Assembly (NCBI GenBank): GCA_017548365.1
Contig: JAFZAC010000040.1
Coordinates: 62,001-126,000, forward strand
From: Muribaculaceae bacterium
Lineage (GTDB): Bacteria > Bacteroidota > Bacteroidia > Bacteroidales > Muribaculaceae
Direction of reading: 5' to 3'
Length of the DNA: 64,000 nucleotides
Under the pieces are notes generated by a model that saw only the letters and a list, made by a program, of their open reading frames with translations, did no database searches and was not told where the DNA came from. Position 1 is the first letter of the stretch; each line of letters begins with the position of its first letter. A program made the translations under genes and the position numbers. This document shows, piece by piece, positions 13,996 to 31,265 of the stretch.

Positions 13996-15867
13996 TTACT
14001 GCCCTCCTAAAATCACGTTGTATATCGCAGTAATATCGGCAGCAGTGACCATGTTGTCTCCATTCACGTCGTACATCTCGTTATAATCATAATCATCGGC
14101 ACTGTTAAGTAAAAAGTTATATATTGCTGACACATCGGCGGCAGTAACGGCTCCATCACCGTCAACGTCTTTCTTCAGTGATTGAGCTCGATTATATTTG
14201 CAACCTTTGTAAACCAACTTTCCATTCTCATAGACTGCAGCGAGACCTGCCATGGGATTAAATCCAGTATAATAATTTCTATAAGGAACAAGCAAGTCGC
14301 CGAAGTTGCAATCTACACCAATGCCCTCGATAGTTTTAAATGAATAGTATTCATTTCCGTTATCTATATAATAACCTTTCCTTGTTGTCCCACCAATTTC
14401 GACTTCGATAGATGAGACACCGTCTGGATTCATGTAATCGGTTGGCAAACATGCTTCTGGTAGATCTTCATACGACCAATCAGGTAAGAACATCTCTTTA
14501 TTGAAGTCATATAATGTTTTAGGAATGCACCACCAATAATTCTCATAATAATAATCTTCATTATACTTATAAGCAGTGACAACCTTGTTTTCTTCTCTTA
14601 CAAAGGTCACTATGTATGGTTGTTTTGCATTCCCCTGCTCGTCATAGTCGGTGCGAATCACATTATGATATAGTAAGCCGTCAATCTCTGTTGTGCCATT
14701 TAATTCAAGGGTATAGAGAGTATGTATCGGATTTTCATCTTCGTCTTGACGGAAGCCAACATATTCCCAAACCACTCCTTTACGAACAAGAGGAACATAG
14801 GTGTTTTCAACAATGTTTGTGAAATCTTTCCATGGGCTTATGGCTTTATAAAGTGAAATAGAGGCTTCAGGAACATAAAGCATACACATTGATTTATCTA
14901 CACCATCAAATATCCTATTGCCACATGACACGTTTTGAGGCATTTGAATATTTGAATAAATTGAACTCAAGCCCGAACAATACATAAAAGCTCTTCCCCC
15001 TATGCGTTGTATATTTTCACCTAAATTGACTGTCTTCAACTTAGAGCAATATAAAAATGCGCAGCTGTCAATCACTGTGACAGATTGAGGCAATACTATT
15101 GATTCAAGCGAACTGCACGACATGAAGCACGAAGTATTGATTTTTTGGATTCCTTCACTCAAATGTACATTATTCAAAGAATAGCAATTTGCAAAGGCTT
15201 CGACACCAAGCCATGTTGATGGCCCTTCAATGGATAAATGCTCAAGGCTATCACAACTGGCAAATGCTTGATAACCAACACTGGTGACTGACGGTGGGAT
15301 TGTCATGGTTTTCAGCCTTTTGTGCTTACTGAATGCATAGTCGGCTATCGACTCGACGGTCGCTGGAACAAAAGAAGAGTTGCTTCCAATGAGCAGTTCA
15401 TTGGTCGAGGTCTTGATAAGAGCATTACAGTTGTCACGCGAATCATAAACCGTGTTATCAGGATCAACCCATATCTCTTCCAGTTCTGGACATTCTCTCA
15501 AATTGTTGGTGCCAATCGTTTTTACTGAACTGGATATTATTACCGAGTGCAGTTTAGGACAATTGAATAATGCGCCATCACCAATCATTGTTACTGTATT
15601 GGGGATTTCTACTGTCTCCAAATTCTGGGCATAACGGAAAGCTTGGTCAGCAATGCGCACAACCTGATAGTTATGGCCATTATATGAAACTACACTGGGA
15701 ATCACAATATTAACTAAGTTCTCATAGTTGTCATAGCCACTAGATTCTTTGACAACATTCACTCCGCCACTCGCAGTCTGGTAACAAATACTATCAACAG
15801 TGAAAGTAACTGCATGGACACTCAATCCAAGCATCATTAAAGCCATGAAAGTGATAATCTTTTTCAT
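13996..15867 (-). CDS. Secreted BspA-like leucine-rich-repeat protein with C-terminal dockerin
   Basis: A 623-residue secreted protein. A signal peptide (about 1-19) is followed by a BspA/LRR_5 block (about 45-335) built from repeats of the IPNTVTMIGDGALFNCPKL type. A middle region (about 340-560) has no clear family. The C-terminus (about 567-623) is a dockerin-like pair of calcium loops, DVDGDGAVTAADVSAIYNFL and DVNGDNMVTAADITAIYN, ending at LGGQ. BspA-like LRRs often bind host or bacterial surface proteins. The neighbouring secreted genes share the dockerin ending, which suggests a common attachment or export route. Confidence 0.85.
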   Translation of the reverse strand: MKKIITFMALMMLGLSVHAVTFTVDSICYQTASGGVNVVKESSGYDNYENLVNIVIPSVVSYNGHNYQVVRIADQAFRYAQNLETVEIPNTVTMIGDGALFNCPKLHSVIISSSVKTIGTNNLRECPELEEIWVDPDNTVYDSRDNCNALIKTSTNELLIGSNSSFVPATVESIADYAFSKHKRLKTMTIPPSVTSVGYQAFASCDSLEHLSIEGPSTWLGVEAFANCYSLNNVHLSEGIQKINTSCFMSCSSLESIVLPQSVTVIDSCAFLYCSKLKTVNLGENIQRIGGRAFMYCSGLSSIYSNIQMPQNVSCGNRIFDGVDKSMCMLYVPEASISLYKAISPWKDFTNIVENTYVPLVRKGVVWEYVGFRQDEDENPIHTLYTLELNGTTEIDGLLYHNVIRTDYDEQGNAKQPYIVTFVREENKVVTAYKYNEDYYYENYWWCIPKTLYDFNKEMFLPDWSYEDLPEACLPTDYMNPDGVSSIEVEIGGTTRKGYYIDNGNEYYSFKTIEGIGVDCNFGDLLVPYRNYYTGFNPMAGLAAVYENGKLVYKGCKYNRAQSLKKDVDGDGAVTAADVSAIYNFLLNSADDYDYNEMYDVNGDNMVTAADITAIYNVILGGQ

Positions 15868-16403
15868 ATCGTTATTGTTTTGAAGTTAATAATCTTGATT
15901 TTGCCGCAAAATAAAACATTAAAATCATCTTTCCAAGAGGAAGGTCTGTACCTTCGCTTTTTATAATACGCTATAATTCAACTAATTGCGGCGTTTAGAA
16001 ATGTGCCTTTTCATTTTTGCCTTGCCATTAAAAGAAAAAGCGTGGAAAAATGTCTTGTTTATTGTTGTAGAGGCATCGCCAAACGCCCAACTCGTAATAA
16101 ACAGTCCATCCCACGCCATGCCATTATATCGACCTTTATGTGGGTAGATAAAGGCAAGCGAAGACGTTCTTTGACTGCATTATCCATCGAGTTTAAAATT
16201 TGGCGATTTCCTACAACAGGATAAAGCAAAAACGCTTACAACTATGTCTTCAAGCAAGAGAACGCCTCTGCGAGTTTGCTTGAATTGTCGCAAAATTACA
16301 CATTATTTTAATTATATACAAGAAATTGATAATTAATTATTAAAAAACATCTTTTTTGTCGCTTTTGTTTAATTCTGCTGCACAGTTATGAATTAAAATA
16401 ATA

Positions 16404-16434
16404 TTGTTTCTCACATCATCAAGCACTACCTTTG
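16404..16434 (+). promoter_or_regulatory. Orphan promoter in the gene-poor region
   Basis: TTG at 16404-16406 and TACCTTTG at 16427-16434 with a 20-nt spacer match the Bacteroidota consensus well. No full-length gene follows; the first ATG is at 16470. Confidence 0.65.
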
Positions 16435-16469
16435 CGCGCATACACGTGAACATTAAATTATATACAACC

Positions 16470-16598
16470 ATGAAAAACAAAAAAAAGAAAACGGCGATTG
16501 TCATCGTTAGCCAAGGCAGTGCCTTCGGCTCAAAAAAATTTTTTTTTCAAATTTGTCCCACTCCCGATCACGATCCCCGATCACGATCCCCGAATTAA
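16470..16598 (+). other. Possible 42-codon leader ORF with embedded hairpin and T-tract
   Basis: Downstream of the orphan promoter, an ATG at 16470 opens a short frame beginning MKNKKKKTAIVIVSQGSAFG. Its codons run through an imperfect hairpin (GCCAAGGC agt GCCTTCGGC, about 16510-16529), then a T-tract, then the 13-bp tandem repeats, ending at TAA 16596-16598. The hairpin plus T-tract would end most transcripts inside the frame. It may be an attenuator-like or small-RNA unit rather than a protein gene. Confidence 0.3.
16563..16593. repeat. 13-bp tandem repeat, 2.4 copies
   Basis: The unit CCCGATCACGATC occurs at 16563-16575 and 16576-16588 exactly, with CCCGA starting a third copy. It is GC-rich in an AT-rich spacer. 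Confidence 0.9.
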
Positions 16599-16887
16599 AA
16601 TGTCCTCTTTCGTTTTTACAACCCGCTGGCAGGTCGCAGCGCTTTGCGAAATTTCAGTTACAAATCGAAACAAGAGAAATGCTGCTAACGCACTATCATT
16701 TTTTAATAAAGCAAATGTAATTTCATTAATAATTATAATTAAAATTCCTCATTATGACAACAAATTATCAATTTATAAAAATGTTTTTTTGTGAAAGTGT
16801 CCCATTTTCAAGTTTTGTTCCATCACGCTACTTTCAATCTGCAACCACTCAAAAAGTATTTTTTTTCAAAAAATGTCCCACTCGCAA

Positions 16888-16944
16888 GAGAGTAATCTCA
16901 AAAAGCTGCACCTCTCGGTGTCAGAAAGCCGCGCATAGCGCGGC
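16888..16944. repeat. Cluster of three short perfect hairpins
   Basis: GAGA-gtaa-TCTC (16888-16899), CACC-tctc-GGTG (16909-16920) and GCCGCGC-ata-GCGCGGC (16928-16944) follow each other directly, 50-110 nt before the hppA 3' hairpin. Confidence 0.7.
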
Positions 16945-16993
16945 GTTGAAAAATCATTCCGGCGAAAGCGGTTTCACTTAGCAAATATACAGC

Positions 16994-17025
16994 AATCCCT
17001 GCCGTGGGGTTGCCAGGCAGGGATT
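16994..17025. terminator. Hairpin after hppA
   Basis: A perfect 10-bp stem, AATCCCTGCC (16994-17003) with GGCAGGGATT (17016-17025), starts 28 nt beyond the hppA stop. No U-tract follows on the minus strand, so it may protect the 3' end or terminate by another mechanism. Confidence 0.6.
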
Positions 17026-17053
17026 GACATAATATAATAATGTATGTTGTTTG

Positions 17054-19450
17054 TTAGAACGATTTCATTCGGTAGAATGAGCGGAATACGAAGTAGAGCG
17101 CCACGAGCACGAAAGCGATGCCGAAGTATGGCGCCATGTCGCGGAAGTTCTCGCTGATGGCAATCTCCATCGCCAGCACACCAAACAGGGTGGTGAACTT
17201 GATGATGGGGTTCAGAGCTACCGAGCTGGTGTCCTTGAATGGGTCACCAACGGTGTCGCCCACAACGCTAGCGTCGTGAAGCTCGGTTCCCTTAGCCTTG
17301 AGATCCACCTCTACCACTTTCTTGGCGTTGTCCCAAGCACCACCGGCGTTAGCCATGAACACAGCCTGGAAGAGACCGAATACAGCGATAGAAATCAGGT
17401 AGCTGACGAAGAGGCATACAGCATTCTCTCCACCGATGCTGCCTGGTGATGAGAGGCATGCGAAGCCAAGCGCGAAGCAGAAGATAGCGATGAAGATGTT
17501 GATCATGCCCTTCTGAGCGTACTCGGTACAAATCTTCACTACCTCTTGGCTCTTATTGATGTCGGCCTTCTTGGGAGCGTTGGCGTCGAGCTTGATATTG
17601 TTCTTGATGAACTCCACGGCACGGTTGGCACCAGTGGTAACAGCTTGCATCGACGAACCAGTGAACCAGAATACTACACAACCACCAAGGATGAATCCAA
17701 GGATTGAATATGGATTAAGCAGATTGAGGATGCTGGCTGGCTCAATGCCCAAAGTGTGCTGAATCATCAGGATGAGCGAGAATATCATGGTAGTGGCACC
17801 TGCCACAGCTGTACCAATGAGCACGGGTTTAGCTGTAGCCTTGAAGGTGTTGCCGGCACCATCGTTGGCTTCAAGATAGTATTTAGCTTTCTCGAAGTCG
17901 GGGGTAAAGCCGAACTCACCCTCGATGTCGGTTTTGGCCTTCTCGATGTCGTCCTCGATGAGCGAGAGCTCATAAACGCTCTGAGCGTTGTCGGTCACGG
18001 GGCCGTAGCTGTCAACTGCGATAGTCACAGGACCCATACCCAGCATACCGAATGCCACAAGACCGAATGCGAAGATTGAGAAGTAGGCACCCAACAAACC
18101 TTCCATATTAAACTCTGAAGAGGCAAGGTAGGCGATGAGCATCAGCACGAAGAATACGATGCCGGTCCAGAAACTACCGAAATTACCCGAAACAAGTCCT
18201 GAGAGGATGTTGAGCGAAGCACCGCCCTGACGCGAAGTCTCTACAACCTCTTTAACATGGGTTGAGGTGGGCGAAGTGAACAATTTGGTAATCTCGGGGA
18301 TAAGGGCTGCGCCCAGAGTTCCGCATGAGATGATGGTTGCAAGACCAATCCACCAGTTGTTGCCAAGGTCCTTGAGCAGGAAGTAGCTGGCAAGGAAGGT
18401 GGCGATAATAGAGAAGATAGAAGTAATCCACACTAGGCTGGTGAGGGGTTTCTCAAAGTCGAGGTCATCGGCCTTGCTGTATTTTGCCTTTGACAAAGCG
18501 CCATTAATATAATAGGAGAGTACCGATGTCACAACACCTAAGATACGCATCACGAAAATCCATACCAGCAGTTGGATTTGATAACTGGGTTCTACAGCCA
18601 GGAGGATAAATGATACAAGTGCTACACCAGTCACACCGTAGGTCTCGAAGCCGTCGGCAGTCGGGCCAATGGAGTCACCAGCATTGTCACCAGTACAGTC
18701 GGCAATCACGCCAGGGTTGCGGGGGTCATCCTCGCCAATCTTGAATACCACTTTCATCAGGTCGCTGCCGATGTCGGCAATCTTGGTAAAGATACCACCA
18801 GCGATACGCAGTGCACTGGCACCAAGCGATTCACCGATTGCGAAACCAATGAAGCAACTACCAGCAAGGTCCTCAGGCATAAACATGAGAATCACAAGCA
18901 TGAGCAGTAGCTCTACACAGATAAGCACAACGCCGATGCTCATACCAGCCGACAATGGGATGTTGAGCAGGTCGAGGGGGCGGCGCTTGAGCGATGCAAA
19001 TGCCATACGGCTGTTGGCGAGCGTGTTCATTCTCACGCCAAACCAAGCCACGGCATAAGATCCAAGAATACCGATAATTGTCCATCCAAGGATTAGAAGC
19101 ACTGAACCTATCTGCATGCCTGACAGCACACCGAAATAGAGTGCTATGGCAGCGCCAATGAATAGGAACAGGATGCCCAGGAATTTGCCTTGCTGCTTGA
19201 GATAGGTGGAACACGTTTTGAAAATAACGTTGCCAATCTCGAGCATCGACTCGTGAGCTTTGAGTTTGCGCACTTTGCTGAATTGCCACAGGCCAAACAG
19301 CATACCAAGAATCACAATCAAAAATCCCCAGTAGAGTACGCTAGTGTTAGAATCTTGCGCAAAGCCCTCGGGCATTTTAAGGTCGGCCTCGCTAGCCATG
19401 AGCGAAACCGGAAGCATTAACATTGCTAATGCAGAAAGTAATTTTTTCAT
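17054..19450 (-). CDS. hppA: Membrane-bound (Na+/H+-pumping) pyrophosphatase
   Basis: A 798-residue integral membrane pyrophosphatase that couples PPi hydrolysis to cation export. About 16 membrane segments are apparent. The PPi-binding signatures are visible: GEDDPRNPGVIADCTGDNAG in the first half, and GGAWDNAKKVVE plus DTVGDPFKDTSSVALNPII in the second. A hydrophilic insert (about residues 490-545) precedes GNTFKATAK. That stretch is where the K+-requirement residues lie; it reads Lys in the first key position and Ala in the second, a mixed pattern. Which ion is pumped cannot be told from sequence by eye. The first 20 residues look like a signal peptide. A hairpin lies 28 nt past the stop. 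Confidence 0.94.
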   Translation of the reverse strand: MKKLLSALAMLMLPVSLMASEADLKMPEGFAQDSNTSVLYWGFLIVILGMLFGLWQFSKVRKLKAHESMLEIGNVIFKTCSTYLKQQGKFLGILFLFIGAAIALYFGVLSGMQIGSVLLILGWTIIGILGSYAVAWFGVRMNTLANSRMAFASLKRRPLDLLNIPLSAGMSIGVVLICVELLLMLVILMFMPEDLAGSCFIGFAIGESLGASALRIAGGIFTKIADIGSDLMKVVFKIGEDDPRNPGVIADCTGDNAGDSIGPTADGFETYGVTGVALVSFILLAVEPSYQIQLLVWIFVMRILGVVTSVLSYYINGALSKAKYSKADDLDFEKPLTSLVWITSIFSIIATFLASYFLLKDLGNNWWIGLATIISCGTLGAALIPEITKLFTSPTSTHVKEVVETSRQGGASLNILSGLVSGNFGSFWTGIVFFVLMLIAYLASSEFNMEGLLGAYFSIFAFGLVAFGMLGMGPVTIAVDSYGPVTDNAQSVYELSLIEDDIEKAKTDIEGEFGFTPDFEKAKYYLEANDGAGNTFKATAKPVLIGTAVAGATTMIFSLILMIQHTLGIEPASILNLLNPYSILGFILGGCVVFWFTGSSMQAVTTGANRAVEFIKNNIKLDANAPKKADINKSQEVVKICTEYAQKGMINIFIAIFCFALGFACLSSPGSIGGENAVCLFVSYLISIAVFGLFQAVFMANAGGAWDNAKKVVEVDLKAKGTELHDASVVGDTVGDPFKDTSSVALNPIIKFTTLFGVLAMEIAISENFRDMAPYFGIAFVLVALYFVFRSFYRMKSF

Positions 19451-19733: not shown

Positions 19734-22334
19734 TCAGTTGCCAAGCAGGATGTTGTAGATTATAGTGATGTCTACTGATGTGATAATGCCGTCTCCGTCT
19801 TGATCACCATTGACAATAGCACTGGAGTCGCCGTTGAGCAGATAATTGTAGAGTGCTGTTACATCTACGCTTGATACTATACCGTCGCCATTCACATCAC
19901 CCACAGTGAACTGTGGCGCCGTGCCGCTATTGTAGACAAAGGCGATGGGCGTGCTATAGTCGGTGTTGGCTGCTCCGCTCGGGGTGTTATAGCTGGCACG
20001 GGCGCGGGCATAGTAGGTGTGTCCGTCTTCCATAAGCTTGTTGTTCACCTTGATGGATCCGGCAGGCAGTGTGGTGTGGTAGGCAAAGTCGCGCACCGTT
20101 TCCACAAACCTAGTGCGTCCCCAAGTCGTGGCGCTGTTCGAAATCTCGATAGTATAGCTCACGGCAGCCTCCTGACGGTCGACAGTGACATACTGGTCGC
20201 TGTAGAGTGTGCCATTGGCTGTGGGGATGGCAAAGGTGGGTGGTGTGGCTTCGAGATAGGCGGTCTTGAAGGTCACGGTGCTTGTCTCGCGGTAGTTGCC
20301 GTTGTCAATCATGTGAACACGCATGTAATAATAGGTGCCTGGAACAAGGGTATACTTGGGAATGTCGAGCTCGCCAGTCGATGATGTGCCGCTGAACACT
20401 ATGTGTTCGAACGAGTCGTCGCTGGCAATCTCCAATGTCGCTTCGGCATCAGAGCCGCCAGTGAGCCACTGGGCGGTGAACGACGGATGAACTTCGTCCT
20501 GGCCGTTCTCGGGATAGATAATGGTGAACACCTGAGGAGTGCACCAACGCGTCTCGCTCACACCATCCTGATAGCCTTCGGCACAGGACCTCACGCGCCA
20601 ATAATAGTTGCGTGGCAGGAATTCACCAAAGGCGCTCGAAGAGATGCTTGTCTCGGTGGTTGTTTGGCGTTTCACATCGGTGAAGTCTTCGTTGGTTGCC
20701 AGCTCAATCATGTAGCCTTGAGCGTTGGGCACTGCCTCCCAGCTCATAGTGAATGGATCGGGTACGAGGCTGCCGTTATCGGGCGACAGGAGAACTGGGG
20801 CATCAAGCTGCTGGTCGGCAGGCGGGATGAGGAATGTGGGCTCAAACTCGTTGTCCATGCGGTCAACGGGACACACGGCATAGTAGTATCCAAAGCGAGC
20901 GTTCTCGGGAATAGTGAAACTGGTGCTGTAGCATACGTCGAGCAACGATTCTGCATCCTTGGCAAACTGTTCAGGGGCTACGCTGTTAGGCACTGCGTAG
21001 ATGGAGTATTTGTAATTGTCAAAGCCGTTCCACGTGAGCACATGGTCCTGGCTGGTGAGGTTGGTGACAACACCGGGGTCAACTCCAGGTTTCCACGGCA
21101 TAGCAGGTGGAAGGGCAGGGCGAGTGAATGTCTTGCGCTTGAGATAGGTGGCAAGTTCCTCGCGGTTGCCGGTGCGGTACAGGTATTTGCAGCTGTAGAA
21201 GATGGCGCCAGGCGCTCCGTCGAAGCTATGGTCGCGGTTGAGCTGAACCTCGTTGGCATACTCCTCGTGGTCGAGCTCGGTGCTGGTACTGCCTAATCCA
21301 GATATTGAGTTGGAGACGAAGAGCTGACGGTCGAAGTATTCGCACACCAGGTTCCACCACGGAACGATTTTACTGTAGTCGGCAGTGGCGCCAATTTTCC
21401 AGTACACTTGTGGCGAGATGTAGTCGATGGTCTTCTCGTTAAGCCAAGCCAGCGGGTCGCTGTAGATAGTGTTGTATTGCCAGTCGCTACCTGCTGGGCA
21501 ACGGGGAAGTCCGTAGTTGGGTGCTGAGGTTCCTGCCACGCCGGCTGGCGAAATACCGAATCGTATGTCGGGACGTGTCGCCTGTATCATGTTGTATACC
21601 TCACGCACCATGCGATTTACATTGGCACGGCGCCAGTCGCCAAAGGTCATGTCGGTGTTGCTGTCGAGCCATTCCTGGTAGTCGCCGGCGCTGCTGTCGC
21701 TTGAGATGCCGTCGGGGTAGAAGTAATCGTCATAGAGAATGCCGTCAACATCATATTTGGTGATAATCTCTTGGCACACGTTAACAATGCGCTCAACAGT
21801 CTCGTCACGGGCAGGGTCGAGGACTACATAACTGCCAGCACTAAGCAACAGTCCCGATTGGCGCAGTTCCATGTCTTGTGGTGTGCCAGCTGCATCCCAT
21901 TGCTCGATTCCATTGCTGCTGTAGCGATAGGGGTTAATCCATGCGTGGCACTCCATACCGCGCTGGTGGCACGCCTCGACGGCGTAGGCCAGTGGATCCC
22001 AGGTGGGTACTTGTCCGCGCGTACCGGTAAGGTAGCTTGACCAGGGCTCGTAGCTCGATTCATACATTGCGTCGCACATCGAGCGCACCTGGAAGTTGAT
22101 TGCGTTGAAATTGTTGTTCTTAAGCGAGTCAAGCATACGGTTGAGCTGGGCTTTCTGCTTCAGCTCGGCGTTAGTGCCATAGGCTTGTGTCTCGGGCCAG
22201 TCAAGGCACCACACAGTTGCCACCCATGCCGAACGGAACTCACGTTTGGGCACGGTGTAGGTAGTAGCTTGCATTACCATGCCACACAATAGCATTATCG
22301 CCAGCATGGCAGTTAAGCGTGTAAATCTTGTCAT
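19734..22334 (-). CDS. Secreted GHL10-family glycoside hydrolase-like protein with dockerin
   Basis: An 866-residue secreted protein. After a signal peptide (about 1-23) comes a glycosyl-hydrolase-like GHL10 domain (about 30-410), recognisable by FRSAWVATVWCLDWP at the start, NAINFQVRSMCDAMY, CHAWINPYRYSS and a YDVDGILYDDYFYP segment. Relatives of this family, with a TIM-barrel fold, are linked to cell-wall or glycan degradation. One or more fibronectin-III-like domains follow (about 425-800). The C-terminus (about 812-866) is a dockerin-like pair, DVNGDGIVSSVDVTALYNYL and DQDGDGIITSVDITIIYN, ending LLGN. The dockerin DNA is nearly the same as in the amylase gene at 40250. Confidence 0.87.
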   Translation of the reverse strand: MTRFTRLTAMLAIMLLCGMVMQATTYTVPKREFRSAWVATVWCLDWPETQAYGTNAELKQKAQLNRMLDSLKNNNFNAINFQVRSMCDAMYESSYEPWSSYLTGTRGQVPTWDPLAYAVEACHQRGMECHAWINPYRYSSNGIEQWDAAGTPQDMELRQSGLLLSAGSYVVLDPARDETVERIVNVCQEIITKYDVDGILYDDYFYPDGISSDSSAGDYQEWLDSNTDMTFGDWRRANVNRMVREVYNMIQATRPDIRFGISPAGVAGTSAPNYGLPRCPAGSDWQYNTIYSDPLAWLNEKTIDYISPQVYWKIGATADYSKIVPWWNLVCEYFDRQLFVSNSISGLGSTSTELDHEEYANEVQLNRDHSFDGAPGAIFYSCKYLYRTGNREELATYLKRKTFTRPALPPAMPWKPGVDPGVVTNLTSQDHVLTWNGFDNYKYSIYAVPNSVAPEQFAKDAESLLDVCYSTSFTIPENARFGYYYAVCPVDRMDNEFEPTFLIPPADQQLDAPVLLSPDNGSLVPDPFTMSWEAVPNAQGYMIELATNEDFTDVKRQTTTETSISSSAFGEFLPRNYYWRVRSCAEGYQDGVSETRWCTPQVFTIIYPENGQDEVHPSFTAQWLTGGSDAEATLEIASDDSFEHIVFSGTSSTGELDIPKYTLVPGTYYYMRVHMIDNGNYRETSTVTFKTAYLEATPPTFAIPTANGTLYSDQYVTVDRQEAAVSYTIEISNSATTWGRTRFVETVRDFAYHTTLPAGSIKVNNKLMEDGHTYYARARASYNTPSGAANTDYSTPIAFVYNSGTAPQFTVGDVNGDGIVSSVDVTALYNYLLNGDSSAIVNGDQDGDGIITSVDITIIYNILLGN

Positions 22335-22422: not shown

Positions 22423-23673
22423 CTACTCCCAAACAAGCTCTTCGCCGCATTTGCCGCAAACCTTCTGGTACAGCTTGATAGGTGCACCGCAAGATGGGCA
22501 ATCAATGGTTTCGTCATCTGTGTCTTGCTCTTTGTTATTGTCCTCCCATTCGAGTATCTCACCACAGTGATTGCACACTTCCTGGAAAGCTTTGATGGGG
22601 GAGCCACAAGCAGGACATGGGTAAGAGGTGTGGTCGTCATCAACTTGAATCGCCATATTTACCTTCTCAATGCTGTTTTTTTCTTGTGACGATTCGGCTA
22701 CAATCTTTTCGGCTTGCTGAAGTGTTATTTTTGAGTTGAATGCGTTGCTCAGAATCTTTTGCATGTCGTGTTCGGCCATAGTCTGCAACAACTTACTTGC
22801 CTTGTTATAGCTTTCGGCTATACATTGGTTGAAGTAGGGCAAGAAACCTTTCTTGTCAAATAGAAGTTTTGCACAAGTGGCATACCACAAGTTGGCCATC
22901 ATTTCGTTTTGTGGCTCTTTAAGCTTAATGCCCTCATCTACAATCTTTATAATCTTTTGCTTGTTGGGGTTGTTGCCTATTATTTTCTGCAATTGAGTTT
23001 TCGTCAGTTGGGGCAGAAGCACTTGGGCTGCAACTTTGACATGGGCTTTGGCTTTTTTCACAGCTTCTTCCCTTGCTTTTCGTTTGGCCTCTTCGCGTGC
23101 TTTACGTTCTGCTTCCTCCCGAGCTTTGCGCTCCGCTTCCTCCCGAGCTTTACGTTCAGCTTCCTCTCGGGCTTTACGTTCAGCTTCTTCCCGGGCTTTA
23201 CGCTCCGCTTCCTCCCGTGCTTTGCGTTCCGCTTCCTCCCGTGCTTTGCGTTCCGCTTCCTCCCGTGCTTTGCGTTCTGCTTCTTCTCTTGCTTTGCGCT
23301 CCGCTTCTTCTCGTGCTTTACGCTCTGCTTCTTCCCGTGCTTTGCGTTCCGCTTCCTCTCGAGCTTTACGTTCTGCTTCTTCTCGCGCTTTTCGCTCTGC
23401 TTCCTCTTTAGCTTTTCGTTCCGCCTCTTCTTTTGCCTTACGTTCGGCCTCTTCGGCGGCACGAATCATTTCTTCAATTTGCTCTGGAGTGAGTTCTTCC
23501 TCAAAGTCATCGTCAAATGGCTTGTTGAACATATAGTCCAACCCTGCGTCATTGTCAAGACTTTCCTCATTCATATCGTTGTTGTCTTGTTCCGATTTAA
23601 GAAGTTTGCTGCCGCAATTAGGGCAGTATCTGAGATTGTCGCTCACTTCGTAATTGCAATTGGTACACTTCAT
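22423..23673 (-). CDS. Zinc-ribbon protein with long charged single-helix repeat
   Basis: A 416-residue protein with no signal peptide. It opens with a zinc ribbon (CTNCNYEVSDNLRYCPNCG), then an acidic linker (about 28-70), then about 17 copies of an 8-residue unit EEAERKAR (about residues 72-205). The alternating i, i+4 charges fit a stable single alpha-helix. A globular stretch (about 210-345) has no known family. Two zinc ribbons end the protein (CPACGSPIKAFQEVCNHCG and CPSCGAPIKLYQKVCGKCG). The helix could act as a rigid spacer between zinc-ribbon heads. A good promoter lies upstream. Function unknown. Confidence 0.8.
   Translation of the reverse strand: MKCTNCNYEVSDNLRYCPNCGSKLLKSEQDNNDMNEESLDNDAGLDYMFNKPFDDDFEEELTPEQIEEMIRAAEEAERKAKEEAERKAKEEAERKAREEAERKAREEAERKAREEAERKAREEAERKAREEAERKAREEAERKAREEAERKAREEAERKAREEAERKAREEAERKAREEAERKAREEAERKAREEAKRKAREEAVKKAKAHVKVAAQVLLPQLTKTQLQKIIGNNPNKQKIIKIVDEGIKLKEPQNEMMANLWYATCAKLLFDKKGFLPYFNQCIAESYNKASKLLQTMAEHDMQKILSNAFNSKITLQQAEKIVAESSQEKNSIEKVNMAIQVDDDHTSYPCPACGSPIKAFQEVCNHCGEILEWEDNNKEQDTDDETIDCPSCGAPIKLYQKVCGKCGEELVWE
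23055..23460 (-). repeat. 24-bp tandem repeats encoding the charged helix
   Basis: About 17 near-identical 24-bp units, each encoding EEAERKAR or a close variant, with mostly synonymous third-position differences. The array keeps reading frames open on both strands, producing spurious ORFs. Copy number is likely to vary between strains. Confidence 0.9.
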
Positions 23674-29837: not shown

Positions 29838-31265
29838 CTAGTCTTTATTTTTCGCATGGTTGCGGCGCTGAGAGTTGTAGTTGACGGCTTCGTTGTCGGC
29901 ACTGCTTTGGTTGCCCATGCGTCGGCGGGGGCTAGAAGGACGGCTTGCAGCGGGCGTAGCTTGAGTGCTTGCTGTCTCTTTTTTGCGCTGATTGTTGATG
30001 CGCTCTTGTCTAGTCTTTTCAAGGTCGTCTTTGCGCTGCTGGTCACGTTCTGCCTGTTGGGCTTTGTCGTTCTGGGCCAAGTTCTCTTTCTCTTGTTTCA
30101 TTCTTTCCTGAGCTTGGGCGTGTGAGTGCTGTTTGGCCTTCTCTTCCAAACGTCTTTTTTCTTCTTCTTTGCGCCTCTTTTCCTCTTCTTTGCGCTTCTT
30201 TTCTTGTTCTTGCTTCTTCTTAGCTTCTTCTTTCTTTTGTTTCTCTGCTTCTTTTTTGCGCTTTTCTTCCTCTTTCTTGCGCTTTTCTTCCTCTTTCTTG
30301 CGTTTTTCTTCTTCTTTCTTGCGCTGTTCTTCCTCTTTCTTGCGCTGTTCTTCTACTTGTTTCTGACGCTTGCGTGCACTCTCTTCACCACGTTTCTGAG
30401 CATCGGTCTTCTCGGTGCGGCTGCCATTAGAAGCATTGTTCTTGGCTGGTGGAGGTGGAACTGCGGCAGGCTCTTTCTTCTCTTTGGGCTTAGGGCGAGG
30501 AACATCGCCGCGGTTGCGACGTGGTTTTGGCGCCTGATGTCCCTTGGGTTTATAAGAAATGTCTTTAACACCGCAACCCTTGTTGAAACGGCTCAAATCT
30601 ACGAGAGCGTCAATGCCCTCGATGCGGCCACGATCGCTGAACTGCCACAATATCCATTTAGCGCCATAGCTCAGCTGTGGCTCGTTCTTGGAGTAACGGG
30701 CAATAAACAAAGGGTAGGATTTGAACGAAGCTCCCAGATAATTGTTGAAGTAATTACTGCTGGCATAAATCATGGGCTTGCAGCCATAGTAGTCCTCAAG
30801 CAGTTGGACAAACTTCATTACGCTGTCTTGCAGCTGCTTTATCGACCAACCATCTCGTTTCTCCACATCGAGCAGTGGAACGAGGTCTTGCTCCTCGGGT
30901 TTTACCACGCTGATGAAATTCTCAAATTGCTTTTGGATAGTGGCAGTGGTTGTCATGAAGTGGTAACTTCCCACTTTGATGCCACGCTTGCGCGCGTGTT
31001 CTATATTGGTGCGGTAGCGATGCTGCTTGTGTGAGGCGCCCTCGGTGGCTTTGATGTAAACATATTTTATGTTGCCATCTTTGACTGTGGCGTCCCAGTT
31101 TATGTCTTTTTGATAATTAGAGATGTCGATACCATCATATACTAACGAGGAATTGTTTTGGTAATTCTTGTCGCCCACTAGTTTAACCTCCTGGTCCTCA
31201 ACATTGACGGCCTGGCAAACTAATGTAAACAGCAAAAATAAAATACCAATTACATATACTCGCAT
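29838..31265 (-). CDS. GH25 lysozyme-like muramidase with charged coiled-coil tail
   Basis: A 475-residue secreted protein. A signal peptide (about 1-19) is followed by a GH25 domain (about 44-240): YDGIDISNYQKDINW at the start, YIKATEGAS, VGSYHFMTT, the catalytic DVEKRDGW, and WILWQFSDRGRIEGI at the end. GH25 enzymes cut the MurNAc-GlcNAc bond of peptidoglycan. A Pro-rich linker (about 248-290) leads into a very long Lys/Glu/Arg helix (about 295-420, KKEEEKRKK-type units) and a low-complexity end. The tail may anchor the enzyme or bridge the periplasm. Promoter at 31322-31291. Confidence 0.88.
   Translation of the reverse strand: MRVYVIGILFLLFTLVCQAVNVEDQEVKLVGDKNYQNNSSLVYDGIDISNYQKDINWDATVKDGNIKYVYIKATEGASHKQHRYRTNIEHARKRGIKVGSYHFMTTTATIQKQFENFISVVKPEEQDLVPLLDVEKRDGWSIKQLQDSVMKFVQLLEDYYGCKPMIYASSNYFNNYLGASFKSYPLFIARYSKNEPQLSYGAKWILWQFSDRGRIEGIDALVDLSRFNKGCGVKDISYKPKGHQAPKPRRNRGDVPRPKPKEKKEPAAVPPPPAKNNASNGSRTEKTDAQKRGEESARKRQKQVEEQRKKEEEQRKKEEEKRKKEEEKRKKEEEKRKKEAEKQKKEEAKKKQEQEKKRKEEEKRRKEEEKRRLEEKAKQHSHAQAQERMKQEKENLAQNDKAQQAERDQQRKDDLEKTRQERINNQRKKETASTQATPAASRPSSPRRRMGNQSSADNEAVNYNSQRRNHAKNKD

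Follow-up and report, generated by a model that had tools for sequence, protein, structure and literature searches.

The 64,000-nt stretch of DNA analyzed here (the window) contains a 1186-bp spacer, at positions 15868-17053, that holds no normal gene, in agreement with the earlier note. It is bordered by the start of a BspA-like gene and the end of hppA, which encodes an H+-pyrophosphatase; Table 1. As judged from its domains, the product of the BspA-like gene is a secreted, BspA-type LRR protein with a C-terminal dockerin. A tRNA/tmRNA search found none. When the spacer was used as a blastn query against its own genome, 58 significant matches were obtained, the self-match included, and these split the spacer into four separately dispersed modules (A to D).

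Table 1. Positions of the genes, repeats, and predicted RNA features in and around the spacer.
Feature	Positions	Strand	Remarks
BspA-like gene	13996-15867	minus	Start borders spacer; Pfam LRR_5 4.7e-59, Dockerin_1 2e-8
Possible second promoter box TTATTTTG	15907-15914	minus	One mismatch to TAnnTTTG; close to BspA start
Module A	16026-16342	minus	Own-genome matches to spacer
Predicted RNA element, ~265 nt	16034-16298	minus	Upstream of BspA-like gene; own Bacteroidales promoter box
Predicted RNA core	16034-16239	minus	R1 full-length match 205.9 bits; covariation; fold z -5.5
Predicted 3' terminator strand and U-tract TTTTTCCACGCTTTTTC	16034-16054	minus	T5:T3 stem covaries, z 4.7
5' variable stem-loop P1	16249-16284	minus	Hairpin TTCAAGCAA...TTGCTTGAA
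-7 promoter box TAATTTTG of RNA/BspA leader	16291-16298	minus	Exact TAnnTTTG
Module B	16399-16600	plus	Own-genome matches to spacer
Divergent module-B promoter	16404-16434	plus	TTG...TACCTTTG; recurs in the genome's further module-B repeats
Module B body	16470-16550	plus	Short ORF start ATG AAA AAC..., hairpin AGCCAAGGCAGTGCCTTCGGCT at 16509-16530, T-tract
T-tract+TGTCCCA unit 1	16539-16560	plus	Pattern search
13-bp GATC-type tandem repeat	16563-16593	plus	Related units in 54-bp-period array, G000:C41
Module C	16635-16808	plus	Own-genome matches to spacer
T-tract+TGTCCCA unit 2	16784-16804	plus	Inside module C
Module D	16858-16969	plus	Own-genome matches to spacer; tight hairpin series 16880-16972
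T-tract+TGTCCCA unit 3	16859-16880	plus	Pattern search
Predicted hppA terminator hairpin	16989-17030	minus	-23.5 kcal/mol, z -4.5; 3' of hppA stop
hppA	17054-19450	minus	End borders spacer

The features of the spacer listed in the earlier note were recovered. The promoter, with TTG at 16404 and TACCTTTG at 16427-16434, is a good Bacteroidales -33/-7 promoter, the three T-tract+TGTCCCA units are present, and the 13-bp tandem repeat occurs in 2.4 copies with a 100% match. The hairpin series folds better than shuffled sequences (z -3.0), and the hairpin at 16994-17025 does so strongly (z -4.5). The latter follows the hppA stop codon, and five congeners retain it at this place; the compensated changes that it shows among them identify it as an ordinary, conserved hppA terminator.

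The plus-strand modules B to D are dispersed repeats specific to the lineage, and minisatellites and small palindromes are attached to them. The 28-nt core of module B was found in seven copies in its own genome (G000), one in the congener G010, and none in 39 other genomes, and the reading frame of the module is not constant among the copies compared. Copies of module C were found at C6 of the same genome (87%) and within the C32 copy (82%), and module D is a REP-like dispersed repeat with 88% copies at C20, C15, and C30 and, at weaker similarity, further copies at C2, C5, C11, and in congeners. Across the 3.0-Mb genome, about 56 distinct T-tract...GTCCCA sites were located, and the reversed control gave none. 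The stricter TGTCCCA form gave, with overlapping matches counted, 57 matches in its own genome, 171 in G010, and 0-7 in 59 further members of the genus; the units are dispersed repeats that have multiplied in this species and in one of the 60 congeners compared. Like REP/BIME and minisatellite repeats, modules B to D consist of short palindromes and T-tract units scattered through intergenic DNA, but their construction on a T-tract...TGTCCCA boundary, and an amplification confined to this species and G010, set them apart. The good promoter, hairpin, and T-tract, and the retention of the 28-nt core in seven copies, could indicate that plus-strand 16399-16970 forms a functional RNA gene in its own right; this is quite unlikely, given its restriction to two of 41 genomes, the copy-to-copy variation of the reading frame, and its composition of dispersed repeats and minisatellites. 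The "decayed insertion" suggested in the earlier note comes closer to the nature of plus-strand 16404-16970 than its "structured non-coding RNA" does. About nine T-tract+GTCCCA units with a 54-bp period were also seen at G000:C41:41357-41869 (L020:3358-3870), directly before a gene with a secreted-protein-like start, where the array is a possible variable-number leader.

A stronger feature, missed by the earlier note, lies on the opposite strand within module A. Copies of module A in the genome and in congeners showed compensated changes visible by eye, and RNAalifold analysis of 21 copies gave 35 base pairs, 20 of them with two-sided changes. A covariance model built from these 21 copies (R1) found five further copies in the same genome. 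The strands of the core follow one another in the order K5-X-P5-C5-N5-Y-inner hairpin-T5-Z-N3-C3-P3-W-T3/K3, and the halves of the variable 5' stem-loop P1 also covary (z 15.8, 68 copies). In an alignment of 89 copies, 96.3% of the helix cells pair, 29 of the 35 pairs show two-sided changes, and 439 cells are two-sided, compared to 104 after shuffling and 59-101 in slid registers; the alignment had been adjusted to the structure of the model and is therefore biased in its favour, and helices outside the model are covered by the swap test described below. The two-sided changes speak for base pairing in the RNA and against a coding function, and no conserved short ORF was noticed in the leader. 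Modules A and B are adjacent and divergent at three other sites of the genome (L018:3640-4328, L012:169-712, and L017:3394-3685), in one of which module A is truncated; the same side-by-side arrangement as in the window suggests duplication of the combined block.

Full-length R1 matches were found in 72 of 101 genomes of the genus, 152 of 198 of the family (27 of its 30 genera), 95 of 295 of the order, and 12 of 296 in a phylum-wide sample, the own genome being one of the 12, and there are often several copies per genome; these numbers are lower bounds, the wide scans having scored few candidates per genome. Carriers include Duncaniella muris, Butyricimonas, Odoribacter, Coprobacter, Barnesiella, and Xylanibacter. 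Outside the Bacteroidales, weak full-length matches (64-73 bits) occur in L280 and L281, which belong to another order of the same class; in L280 the outer helices are kept and the inner hairpin is shortened. Tandem or closely spaced copies on one strand were observed at G569:C8:72500-73057, G070:C93:25644-28290, and G167:C12:74788-77588. At the gathering score, Rfam 15 gave no family in the window, and in 20 loci that contain copies none overlapped the RNA; its lax E-value mode gave only matches to MIR2599 and FopS that were chance-level or off-target. A literature search found no published description, and an unnamed earlier prediction may be present among the 3161 human-microbiome candidates of PMC8040213. 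The best reading is that the family is an uncatalogued class of cis-regulatory RNA of the Bacteroidales, without a match in Rfam 15.

The copies are positioned as are the leaders of attenuators and riboswitches. In 81 of 86 cases the ORF that comes next downstream shares the strand of the RNA, usually at 45-75 nt from the core, and the upstream ORF shows no strand bias (51 same, 37 opposite). A TAnnTTTG box was found within 130 nt upstream of the RNA in 78 of 88 copies (9% in shuffled sequences), most often 54-61 nt before the core, and within the first 70 nt after the RNA in three of 88. BspA-type LRR proteins are encoded by 17 of 78 downstream genes; the others are diverse and include genes for lipoproteins, outer membrane proteins, CotH, LytTR, UbiA, and an EF-G-like protein. 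On account of this diversity, a single common function of the regulated genes was dropped as an explanation. The diversity also points to no obvious ligand, which counts against the switch model set out below. The RNA is kept with similar genes across species (for example L048/L076, L064/L067, and L069/L073). An anti-phage cargo was likewise dropped; three kinds of PADLOC model were matched, each by one protein of the 78.

Competing folds were assessed with a swap test, in which the complementarity of two strands within a copy was compared to that of strands swapped between copies, with shared ancestry partly corrected (88 copies). The helices of the rod covary strongly (P, z 36; N, 33; C, 13), and covariation is also seen in helices that compete with one another (X:Y, 6.6; Y:Z, 7.5; Z:W, 6.3; K5:K3, 7.4; T5:T3, 4.7), compared to 0 to 2.2 for control pairings. 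In this test X:W gives a weak signal (3.1), and I5:T5, an inner pairing, gives none (-0.3). T3 also covaries with V (z 10.7), a loop in a small hairpin just before the start codon. In 67 of 88 copies X:Y and Y:Z have 5 or more nucleotides of Y in common, and in 77 of 88 Y:Z and Z:W have 4 or more of Z in common, so that the members of each pair are predicted to exclude each other; for Y:Z and Z:W, both of which covary, this is the relation expected of an antiterminator and a terminator. The 10 nt that follow the CACGC of the covarying T5:T3 stem contain a mean of 7.4 T, compared to 3.0 in the background (85 copies); at least 6 T are present in 82 of 85, and some copies have weaker U-tracts. 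The rod is the minimum free energy fold in 88 of 88 copies, and the terminator state is less stable by a median of about 12 kcal/mol in nested folding without pseudoknots; termination would thus need kinetics, a pseudoknot, or a ligand. These findings support, but do not prove, an attenuator with read-through as its default.

The element in the window is probably a member of a family of cis-regulatory leader RNAs that act as transcription-attenuation switches on diverse, mostly accessory or surface genes. Transcription would begin at the TAnnTTTG promoter, about 55-60 nt upstream of the core, and the variable 5' stem-loop would be made first. The core could then adopt the extended rod (K5:K3, X:W, P, C, N, and Y:Z), allowing read-through. 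Alternatively, X:Y would form together with a terminator stem, in which T5-Z pairs with W-T3 ahead of the U-tract, and transcription would stop prematurely; only one state could exist at a time. In the read-through mRNA, loop V would pair with terminator strand T3. A signal, either a metabolite or a protein, would choose the state, and thus set the expression of the downstream gene, and would probably be read through the conserved C-helix and its flanking loops, the candidate site. The model is founded on the family, its covarying helices and their exclusion of one another by sequence, the U-tract, and the positions of promoter and gene; that the RNA is transcribed and terminated in vivo, that a signal acts on it, and in which sense control runs are inferred. 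A more ambitious reading, offered tentatively, is that the family is an uncatalogued riboswitch class of the Bacteroidales, in which a global signal (for example a second messenger, or an envelope or nutrient signal) would co-ordinate many unrelated accessory and surface genes by a rod-to-cruciform strand exchange and back-pairing of the mRNA. The "structured non-coding RNA" and "attenuator relic" of the earlier note thus find a counterpart in kind on the minus strand, outside the features to which it had pointed, and "relic" does not suit an element conserved across the order.

In the window copy, the BspA gene is on the same strand and starts 167 nt past the RNA core. Because of this gap and the near-match to a second promoter within it, the gene may be partly uncoupled from the RNA, and thus only partly controlled by it. 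At the position that corresponds to this box, the copies in G001 carry TAATTTTG. In G064, G001, G114, and G080, the UPRT-TsaE-biotin ligase genes adjoin hppA, and both the BspA gene and the RNA are missing; only about 100 bp separate ligase and hppA in G114, and other genes occupy the site in G064. R1 had no match in 12 such stretches. Since the BspA gene and spacer are missing from the same site in these relatives, the block would have been either gained here or lost there, and the RNA element and the gene may have arrived together.

Several other explanations of the element were considered. The rod, as the most stable fold in all copies, might be a protein-binding site or an RNase III-type processing or stability site in a cis-acting leader that has no terminator switch, with translation controlled through V, a view with which the covariation of T3 with V in its hairpin before the start codon is consistent. 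Such a leader is unlikely, since the U-tract is kept directly after the CACGC stem, and X:Y and Z:W covary even though they would be useless in a static rod. A stand-alone family of small RNAs, lying before genes by chance, would also possess its own promoter and terminator, and would suit the few copies, possibly including that of the window, with a second promoter-like box before the gene. The 81:5 strand bias, the usual spacing to the start codon, the absence of a promoter box from the gap in most copies, and the covariation of T3 with V, beyond the terminator, make it very unlikely.

An origin as a DNA feature of mobile cassettes that carry accessory genes, such as an attC-like folded recombination site or a MITE, deserves the least credence. 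It is suggested by the imperfect palindrome of the rod, the diversity of the accessory genes downstream, and the absence of the BspA and RNA block from the four related genomes. However, the upstream genes lack the one-strand arrangement of neighbours in a head-to-tail integron attC array, and core copies within the genome are only 61-80% identical, which argues against recent transposition there and against an active MITE. The geometry relative to promoter and start codon is strict, and V pairs outside the palindrome. No copy was found by blastn in phages or plasmids, and the exact pattern occurs in just three viral contigs of 2.9 million; a phage or plasmid origin was rejected.

The preferred reading, a leader that acts by transcription attenuation, places the element beside known attenuation leaders and riboswitches, which likewise are 5' leaders with mutually exclusive helices, an intrinsic terminator stem, and a U-tract. 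It differs in having no known aptamer or leader peptide, in its predicted four-strand exchange on a rod of about 190 nt, in the pairing of an mRNA loop beyond the terminator back to the terminator, and in its occurrence, often several times in one genome, before a very diverse set of genes. Rfam lists other RNAs of Bacteroidetes, namely Bacteroidales-1 (RF01693), 6S-Flavo (RF01685), and FopS (RF04319), the last also described as a multi-copy family; none matches the element significantly, and the chance-level FopS match lies outside the core. With integron attC sites, MITEs, and REPs it shares an imperfect palindrome, dispersed copies, and accessory genes, but it is distinguished by compensatory changes of the RNA type, a fixed promoter and start-codon geometry, and low identity within a genome. 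In most genomes of the family, and in about one third of those sampled in the order, as many as about ten genes per genome seem to stand under a single shared RNA element. Should this element prove to be a switch, its genes would make up a regulon of surface and accessory functions in bacteria that are abundant in the gut, and a new signal that they sense might come to light. The element is present in cultivated strains such as Duncaniella muris DSM 103720, Butyricimonas synergistica, and Coprobacter secundus, and is therefore directly testable.

Other features of the window were also observed. Dockerin type I domains are present at the ends of two nearby secreted proteins, the BspA-like protein and GHL10 (19734-22334), and long, likely coding tandem repeats occur at 23063-23454 (24/72-bp units) and 30157-30353 (21/63-bp units). 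TAnnTTTG boxes are enriched over the whole window (71, compared to 42 expected), a number reached in none of 100 shuffles, which fits the Bacteroidales promoter.
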